The position numbers and the translations under genes are program-made. A DNA stretch of 64,000 nt from Opitutales bacterium (lineage in GTDB: Bacteria > Verrucomicrobiota > Verrucomicrobiia > Opitutales > JABSRG01). The notes beneath the pieces are model-generated. The model saw only the letters and a list, made by a program, of their open reading frames with translations, did not search any database and had not been told where the DNA came from. The DNA lies in the NCBI GenBank assembly GCA_028280845.1, contig JANQKZ010000018.1:62001-126000 (forward strand). The letters are read 5' to 3'. Shown here piece after piece: positions 3,168 to 46,933 of this stretch (positions within the stretch are counted from its first letter, which is position 1; each line of letters starts with the position of its first letter).

Positions 3168-3356
3168 GACGGATCTCGGAGGTCGGAGGGCGGAAGTCGG
3201 ATGTCAGAGGGCAGAGGTCGGAAGACGGAAGACGGAAGACGGAAGACGGAGGTCGGAGGTCGGAAGTCGGAGAGCGGATGTCGGATGTCGGAGGTCGGAT
3301 GTCGGAGGACAGAGGTCGGAAGACGGAGATCGGGAGTCGGAAATCGAAGGCAGAAT
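3168..3356 (+). repeat. Heptanucleotide array A, about 27 units of GTCGGAN
   Basis: Uninterrupted 7-nt periodicity from 3168 to about 3356 with consensus G(T/A)CGGA(G/A/T), 27 degenerate units, including a run of three identical GACGGAA units at 3224-3244. It begins 1 nt after the stop codon of the DUF3500 gene. Because 7 is not a multiple of 3 and the units lack stop codons, open frames run through it and generate artificial low-complexity peptides, which are not annotated here. It lies upstream of the four-helix-bundle gene, and an inverted array (3814-3897) lies downstream of that gene. Confidence 0.95.
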
Positions 3357-3406
3357 TCTGTAGACGGAGAATCCATAATTGTCGGAGACTTCAGCAAGGA
3401 GGGTGC

Positions 3407-3784
3407 ATGATAATAAAGACAGCTAAAGATTTGGATGTGTATCAGCTTGCTTATGAGCAAGCACTTAGAATTTTTGAGCTCAGTAGTACTTTTCCTGATG
3501 AAGAGAAGTTTGCTTTGACGAGTCAGATCAGAAGGGCGTCCCGATCAGTGTGCCTGAATTTACGTGAGGCTTGGGCAAAACGTAGATATGAAGCCCACTT
3601 TATAAGCAAACTAACGGATTGTGATGGTGAAAATGGTGAAACTGAGACTGCCCTGGATTTTGCTCTAGACTGTGGTTTTATGCGTAAATGCAACCACGCC
3701 ATTTTGGTGGAAAAGAATCATTTGATAGGAAAAAAACTAGGCAAAATGTTGTCCGACCCTGATCCCTTCATCATTCGAAAATAG
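3407..3784 (+). CDS. Four-helix-bundle protein (S23/IVP family)
   Basis: 125 aa. It begins with AKDLDVYQLAYEQA, continues with FPDEEKFALTSQIRRASRSV and then LREAWAKRRYEAHFISKL, the signature order of the four-helix-bundle family first seen in 23S rRNA intervening sequences (TIGR02436-like) and structurally related to Avd proteins of diversity-generating retroelements. The ATG at 3407 has a strong Shine-Dalgarno (AAGGAGGG, 3396-3403). A longer in-frame reading would translate the heptamer array and is rejected. Base composition is visibly more AT-rich than the neighbours, suggesting transfer. It is enclosed by inverted heptamer arrays. No reverse transcriptase or template repeat is in the window. 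The molecular function is unknown; nucleic-acid binding is inferred from the family. Confidence 0.85.
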   Translation: MIIKTAKDLDVYQLAYEQALRIFELSSTFPDEEKFALTSQIRRASRSVCLNLREAWAKRRYEAHFISKLTDCDGENGETETALDFALDCGFMRKCNHAILVEKNHLIGKKLGKMLSDPDPFIIRK

Positions 3785-3813
3785 CCCCGATAAAAATAGT
3801 ATTATTCTGTTTG

Positions 3814-3897
3814 CTGACATCCGCCTTCAGCCTTCCGACATCCGCCCTCTGCCCTCTGACTTCCGACATCCGATCTCCGTCCTCCGCCATTCGTCCA
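3814..3897 (-). repeat. Heptanucleotide array B, inverted, 12 units
   Basis: On the plus strand the units read as the complement of array A (for example CCGACAT, CCGCCCT, CCGATCT), with exact 7-nt spacing from 3814 to 3897. Read on the minus strand it has the same GTCGGAN-type consensus and starts 1 nt after the TAG stop of pfkA (3899-3901). Arrays A and B therefore form inverted flanks around the four-helix-bundle gene and could pair over a long imperfect stem. Confidence 0.93.
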
Positions 3898-9820: not shown

Positions 9821-9897
9821 AGTCGGAGGTCGGAGGTCGGAAGACGGATGTCGGAGGTCGGAGGTCGGAAGATGGATGTCGGATGTCGGAGGTTTGA
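9821..9897 (+). repeat. Heptanucleotide array C, 11 units
   Basis: Strict 7-nt spacing from 9821 to 9897 with units GGTCGGA, AGACGGA and TGTCGGA, the same consensus as array A. It begins 6 nt after the cysI stop codon and is oriented the same way relative to the gene it follows as arrays A and B. No four-helix-bundle gene is adjacent, so this is a solo array. Confidence 0.93.
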
Positions 9898-46794: not shown

Positions 46795-46933
46795 GTGTCT
46801 AGTGTCTGGTGTCTAAGGTGTGAAAGTAAAAAGTGGGAAGGGGGGTTCAGGCACGGCGCGTCCGGTGGTCGCCGCCCTACCTTGTAGGGATTTAAAAGAG
46901 TCTGGATTCTGGTGTCTGGGTTCTGGTATCTGA
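46795..46933 (-). repeat. Intergenic repeats, 7-nt period (GTGTCTA / TCTGG)
   Basis: In the 168-nt spacer between oppC and oppB the plus strand has GTGTCTA-GTGTCTG-GTGTCTA at 46795-46815 and a second run AGTCTGG-ATTCTGG-TGTCTGG-GTTCTGG-TATCTGA at 46899-46933, both with exact 7-nt spacing. A REP-like palindrome (46850-46889) sits between them. Confidence 0.75.
46850..46889. repeat. REP-like palindrome between oppC and oppB
   Basis: GGCACGGCGCGTCC, GGTGGTCGCCGCCCTAC, then CCCTAC-CTT-GTAGGG, a 6-bp stem. GC-rich with a CGGCGC...GCCGCCC layout close to the element at 9943-9960. It may be an mRNA-stability or transcription-modulating structure, but no function can be shown from the sequence alone. 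Confidence 0.5.

Follow-up and report, generated by a model that had tools for sequence, protein, structure and literature searches.

The intervening sequences (IVS) of bacterial rRNA genes are suspected to be mobile, and their function and origin have been called unclear (PMC4990558). The 23S rRNA IVS of Coxiella is 428 nt long, contains an ORF of the S23/IVP family, is bounded by 28-bp terminal inverted repeats and is excised by RNase III; the ORF is preceded by tandem GACAGAT heptamers, the number of which differs between strains (PMC4990558). A four-helix-bundle homologue of the protein forms a pentameric ring (PMC4990558), and structures of relatives have been solved (2gsc, 2rld). So far, recognition of the unit of gene and repeats has been confined to cases in which it interrupts rRNA genes, and our search of the open-access literature found no description of the class considered here.

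Several other systems share parts of this plan. The STRR heptanucleotide repeats of cyanobacteria are dispersed intergenic arrays of heptamers. The Foldback (FB) element of Drosophila has long terminal inverted repeats built of short tandem repeats; FB and Galileo are eukaryotic, much larger elements that are moved by a DDE transposase, and their proteins are unrelated to the four-helix-bundle family. REPINs combine palindromic REP hairpins with a Y1 transposase. Intergenic heptamer arrays have also been described in Beggiatoaceae (unit TAACTGA; PMC4679880), and long terminal inverted repeats are reported for Galileo of Drosophila (PMC3688188). Here we describe a four-helix-bundle gene and the matching repeats around it which, judging from sequence comparisons, represent, as a class, one small mobile DNA unit that is widespread in bacteria.

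The locus lies in a 64,000-nucleotide stretch of the genome of an Opitutales bacterium, hereafter the window. It occupies the gap between a DUF3500 gene (E 1e-83, + strand) and a phosphofructokinase gene, pfkA (E 8e-100, - strand), and because of these strands the two genes converge, as the initial annotation had it. The following parts were delineated:

3168..3897, + strand: whole element, consisting of the arms and the four-helix-bundle gene
3168..3345, + strand: 5' arm (array A), 25 imperfect GTCGGAN heptamers in register
3396..3403, + strand: ribosome binding site AAGGAGGG of the four-helix-bundle gene
3407..3784, + strand: four-helix-bundle gene (PF05635 / TIGR02436, S23 or IVP family), 125 aa
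3818..3897, - strand: 3' arm (array B), 11 heptamers in inverted orientation

Array A, which TRF reports as a repeat of period 7 with 23.7 copies and 77% matches, starts immediately 3' of the DUF3500 stop codon, and the end of array B adjoins the pfkA stop codon. Both arrays, including the inversion of the second, had been recognised in the initial annotation, with counts of 27 and 12 units that were slightly too high. The gene starts with the ATG at 3407 and its stop codon ends at 3784; its own strong ribosome binding site and its visibly lower GC content, both noted at the outset, are borne out, the latter being 0.407 compared to 0.519 in DUF3500, 0.558 in pfkA and 0.516 in the whole window.

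For comparison of the arms, each upstream flank was aligned with the reverse-complemented downstream flank. In this inverted orientation, the window arms match each other with a score of 48, whereas none of the 182 swapped locus pairs exceeds 18; in direct orientation, the score is 7, that is, hardly any match. The outer 11 units of array A align to array B with their order preserved, so that, for example, GTCAGAG-GGCAGAG makes up units 6-7 in each arm. The order and register of the units beat shuffled order with p 0.006, which becomes p 0.12 once the choice of register is allowed for, and this single-locus test is suggestive only. A unit-order test over 71 loci was biased, because the arms had been picked by alignment, and was discarded as evidence.

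Profile comparison identifies the window protein as a clear member of the PF05635/TIGR02436 family (23S_rRNA_IVP, PF05635: E 5e-26, 91.4 bits, cut-off 33.8; TIGR02436: E 6e-23, 81.1 bits, cut-off 24) and just a distant relative of Avd. The matches to bAvd (PF22296: E 7e-6, 27 bits) and DivGenRetAVD (NF033474: E 0.001, 19 bits) stay below the respective cut-offs of 40 and 80; thus, the IVP assignment made initially holds, whereas the proposed kinship with Avd is remote. PF05635 is the only recognised gene in the element, in which no transposase, recombinase or reverse transcriptase was detected; the window element accordingly lacks the encoded transposase of a classical insertion sequence. A search of the locus against Rfam and a phage search for the element each returned no match.

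The genome that contains the window yields 13 matches to TIGR02436, most of which are flanked by imperfect inverted repeats, mainly of 7 bp, and the unit differs from one gene to the next (CCAGATT, GTGTCTA and TCCTAAA, for example). We assembled a sample of 135 distinct genes from this genome, from further genomes of its order and from a scan of bacterial genomes, which contributed 80 loci and extended to Bacteroidota, Planctomycetota, Thermodesulfobacteriota, Nitrospirota, Chloroflexota, Bacillota, Elusimicrobiota and others; the 135 four-helix-bundle genes span more than 12 phyla. Over these loci, the mean arm score is 19.1 for a locus's own flanks, compared to 10.3 for swapped flanks (p about 1e-22), 11.6 when the flanks are aligned directly and 9.9 when they are shifted by 500 bp. 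With one locus retained for each of the 76 insertion sites, the scores are 18.4 and 10.0 (Wilcoxon p 1.4e-12); 50 of the 76 sites lie above the 95th percentile of swapped flanks, and the other 26 are no better than it. Of 95 loci, 71 have an upstream arm that is rich in purines on the strand of the gene, and 3 have one rich in pyrimidines; the purine richness raises background matches and could give the impression of arms by chance or as a low-complexity artefact of purine-rich intergenic sequence. The swapped, displaced and direct controls, which score far lower than the actual arms, refute this explanation, and we consider its probability negligible.

Autocorrelation of the flanks peaks at lags 7 and 8, and 97 of 104 loci have 7, 8 or 14 as their best period; the unit sequence varies from locus to locus, also inside the genome of the window. 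Arrays account for 17-20% of the bases within 100 bp of the gene, for 1.2-2.5% at 100-250 bp and for 0.1-1.3% farther than 250 bp away. Three four-helix-bundle loci on cyanobacterial plasmids have the same anatomy, with GGGAGTA, GGGAACA or GGGAAAA/GGGAAGA as the arm units.

Of 62 distinct sites, 47 have the four-helix-bundle gene in the same orientation as both neighbours, and 3 have it opposed to both (p 4e-11). Recurrent junctions include atpA/atpG, sdhA/sdhB, hisF and leuB (gene names at the junctions were read by eye; the exceptions, sdhB and atpG, had served as queries). The tree separates the sdhA/sdhB four-helix-bundle genes of different phyla. Independent insertion at sdhA/sdhB or leuB, where the genes are ungrouped in the tree, is nevertheless not claimed because a single origin withstands the AU test (p 0.23, 0.36). 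Cerasicoccus maritimus appears to belong to the order, given that the flanks of its locus (L102) match those of the element in genome G116. The gene downstream of another element (L087) begins like a cas2, as identified by eye, and a locus from a Planctomycetota bin (L092) resembles L087 at the end of the upstream gene and in its four-helix-bundle gene, which is closely related; movement together with a CRISPR locus is possible in this case.

Mobility of the class is apparent in genome G007, which contains two full copies with 95% identity over 414 bp and unrelated flanks; the homology between these copies starts and stops inside the AAGGCACA arrays. More than 20 further places in this genome contain the array and about 50 bp of the start of the gene, that is, truncated copies; one copy is internally deleted, and at least two groups of copies have a new interior in common. 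The near-identical copies thus occupy unrelated places and end where the element ends, as expected of a mobile element. The dispersed truncated copies cannot make the protein, which fits the mobilisation in trans that had been suggested from the window alone. Outside the arms of some G007 copies, at the 3' ends of L232 and L244, there is a short palindrome, CTCGCCTTGGCGAG, possibly a part of the element end or a member of another repeat family.

Comparison of related genomes reveals common, replaced and empty sites. At the atpA/atpG junction in genus g35, four genomes (G052, G037, G139 and G143) have one element in common (92-97% identical). The same junction in G102 has flanks 93-95% identical to those of G052, G037 and G139, around an element that is only 63% identical to that of its congeners and contains other units in both arms. 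In G147, which is more distant (flanks 86-88% identical to those of the filled congeners), the junction is empty, with a 27-nt gap that could represent either the site before insertion or a footprint left by excision. This gap, ATTCAAAGCTTCAGGCTTTTACGGAAA (L167), includes AAGCTT, resembling the unit of the element in sister species. The empty sites examined differ in sequence from filled ones, and at atpA/atpG the two cannot be aligned at the borders, so that a target-site duplication is not definable.

Replacement is also seen in L225 compared to L226/L227 (upstream flank 92-97% identical, gene 58-59%, downstream flank only 67-69%), in L217/L219 compared to L223 (flanks 93 and 85-87%, gene 63%) and in L068 compared to L063 (flanks 91 and 85%, gene 68%). 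The units of elements that replace each other at one junction are sometimes rather similar (AAGCTTA and AAGATTA), which leaves room for part of the array being a feature of the site and not of the element; certain same-site replacements could be exchanges by homologous recombination. The mobile cassette postulated in the initial annotation is thus supported for the class by the G007 copies, the empty site and the replacements; the window's own copy would be mobile by virtue of belonging to this class. The non-array part of the window element is single copy in its genome. In the search for an empty counterpart of the window site, DUF3500 was found in only 22 of 115 genomes of the order, with at most 47% identity outside the window's own genome, and was absent from the one family member examined.

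GTCGGAN arrays also occur alone. The window itself contains a second one, at 9822-9893, with 10 units and no four-helix-bundle gene; it begins 7 bases past a stop codon, and its sense strand is purine-rich, like that of a 5' arm. Elsewhere in the window, at 46900-46932, 2.4 copies of a short 14-bp tandem repeat, GTCTGGATTCTGGT, look similar to the heptamer arms. The genome has several solo GTCGGAN arrays. In contig C47 (L054), two arrays in the same orientation (1185-1291 and 2431-2531) flank what, by eye, is apparently a LacI-type regulator gene. Contigs C5, C40, C44 and C46 (L055, L056, L057 and L058) begin inside GTCGGAN arrays, which therefore probably broke the assembly and are undercounted.

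The association of array and gene noted initially is tight but, in view of the solo arrays, not absolute. This can be read to mean that the arrays are independent, scattered intergenic repeats which serve as landing sites, with the gene moving in and the arrays staying. The solo arrays are in line with such a reading, and so are the similar units found at one junction despite differing genes and the sdhA/sdhB junction in family f20, where the element is present in two genomes, a solo array without the gene in three relatives, and neither in five. Insertion of the gene into one array predicts flanks that match in direct orientation, whereas direct matches are near background, and in G007 the array and the start of the gene have travelled together to the more than 20 places noted above. 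We consider the landing-site explanation improbable.

One orthologous site, represented by 21 Flavobacteriaceae loci, bears on how the arms stay matched, since they co-vary there. The unit varies between species, and the two arms of each locus match (own-arm score 19.0, compared to 13.3 across loci; reached in 0 of 20,000 permutations). Such persistence at orthologous operon junctions, together with the finding that the four-helix-bundle genes at this site are nearly one clade, would suit a stationary regulatory gene, the product of which binds its own flanking repeats and controls the operon, with quasi-palindrome correction at replication keeping the arms alike. For the class, stationarity is contradicted by the replacements, the empty site and the dispersed copies in one genome, which makes this explanation very unlikely.

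The match between the arms might, alternatively, be maintained at the RNA level, as in an IVS: the arms would pair in the operon transcript, RNase III would cut the stem and the gene-bearing loop would be freed, and complementarity would be selected because only an insertion that folds out of the RNA would do no harm. The Coxiella IVS, with the same ORF family, a 28-bp stem, GACAGAT heptamers and RNase III excision, sets a precedent (PMC4990558). The elements are located in operons and co-oriented with them, and the transcript of the window element folds strongly (MFE -288.6 kcal/mol, z -9.9 over 20 shuffles) into a structure in which the arms pair. Selection for an RNA stem is expected to make G-U compatible mismatches outnumber A-C mismatches, whereas the mismatches between arms number 150 of the G-U type and 153 of the A-C type, with no asymmetry between the RNA strands and no signature of RNA-stem selection. 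The lack of a G-U excess favours homogenisation at the DNA level or selection on something besides RNA pairing, and is compatible with RNA processing. We regard maintenance at the RNA level as a possible but doubtful alternative.

Weighing these observations, we conclude that the feature is probably a small fold-back mobile element that consists of one four-helix-bundle gene and two inverted arms of 7- or 8-bp tandem repeats. Across the class, the gene and the arms co-occur as a unit that inserts between neighbouring genes, co-oriented with transcription, can give way to another unit at its junction, spreads to further places in a genome and yields truncated copies in which the 5' array and some 50 bp of the gene are retained. 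In the mechanism that we propose for this fold-back element, the four-helix-bundle protein would bind the paired arms, as DNA or RNA, and thus provide the element's own putative nucleoprotein. Cutting and joining would be supplied by the host or by another element, and this activity would act in trans on the truncated copies as well. The arms would be kept matched by a process acting on DNA, either fold-back template switching or gene conversion from one arm to the other, along with slippage, as suggested by arm pairs that stay alike without an RNA-strand signature.

A broader proposition, for and against which we see the balance as even, is that these elements constitute a very widespread fold-back class, in which the sole protein is a four-helix-bundle ring former, the ends are arrays of 7- or 8-bp repeats with a locus-specific unit, and a borrowed enzyme moves the element and its truncated copies; the 23S rRNA IVS and many 'orphan' heptamer repeats would then be special cases or remnants of this class. 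The S23/IVP family is common yet unexplained, and the paired heptamer arms at dozens of junctions give it a context and suggest an origin for otherwise unexplained heptamer repeats. The empty, filled and replaced sites are natural before-and-after pairs for testing mobility.

Each of the systems introduced at the outset resembles the window element in some respect. STRR and the other heptamer arrays are likewise dispersed, intergenic and heptameric, but, in the literature searched, consist of repeats alone, with no linked gene and no inverted arms. FB and Galileo share the physical plan of a fold-back element with long inverted ends. The Avd proteins of diversity-generating retroelements are distantly similar in sequence to the window protein, but it falls short of the family cut-offs and the element contains neither a reverse transcriptase nor a template repeat. 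REPINs with RAYT similarly combine dispersed short repeats, a linked protein gene and non-autonomous copies, whereas the window element has no Y1 transposase gene. The closest known counterpart is the 23S rRNA IVS of Coxiella and Leptospira, which is alike in protein family, size, terminal inverted repeats and the tandem heptamers by the ORF. As in the IVS, complementary terminal arms surround an S23 ORF in the window element, but each whole arm is a tandem array, and the element lies between protein genes, DUF3500 and pfkA, rather than inside an rRNA gene. By definition, it is for this reason not an IVS; it has the appearance of an IVS relative in intergenic DNA.
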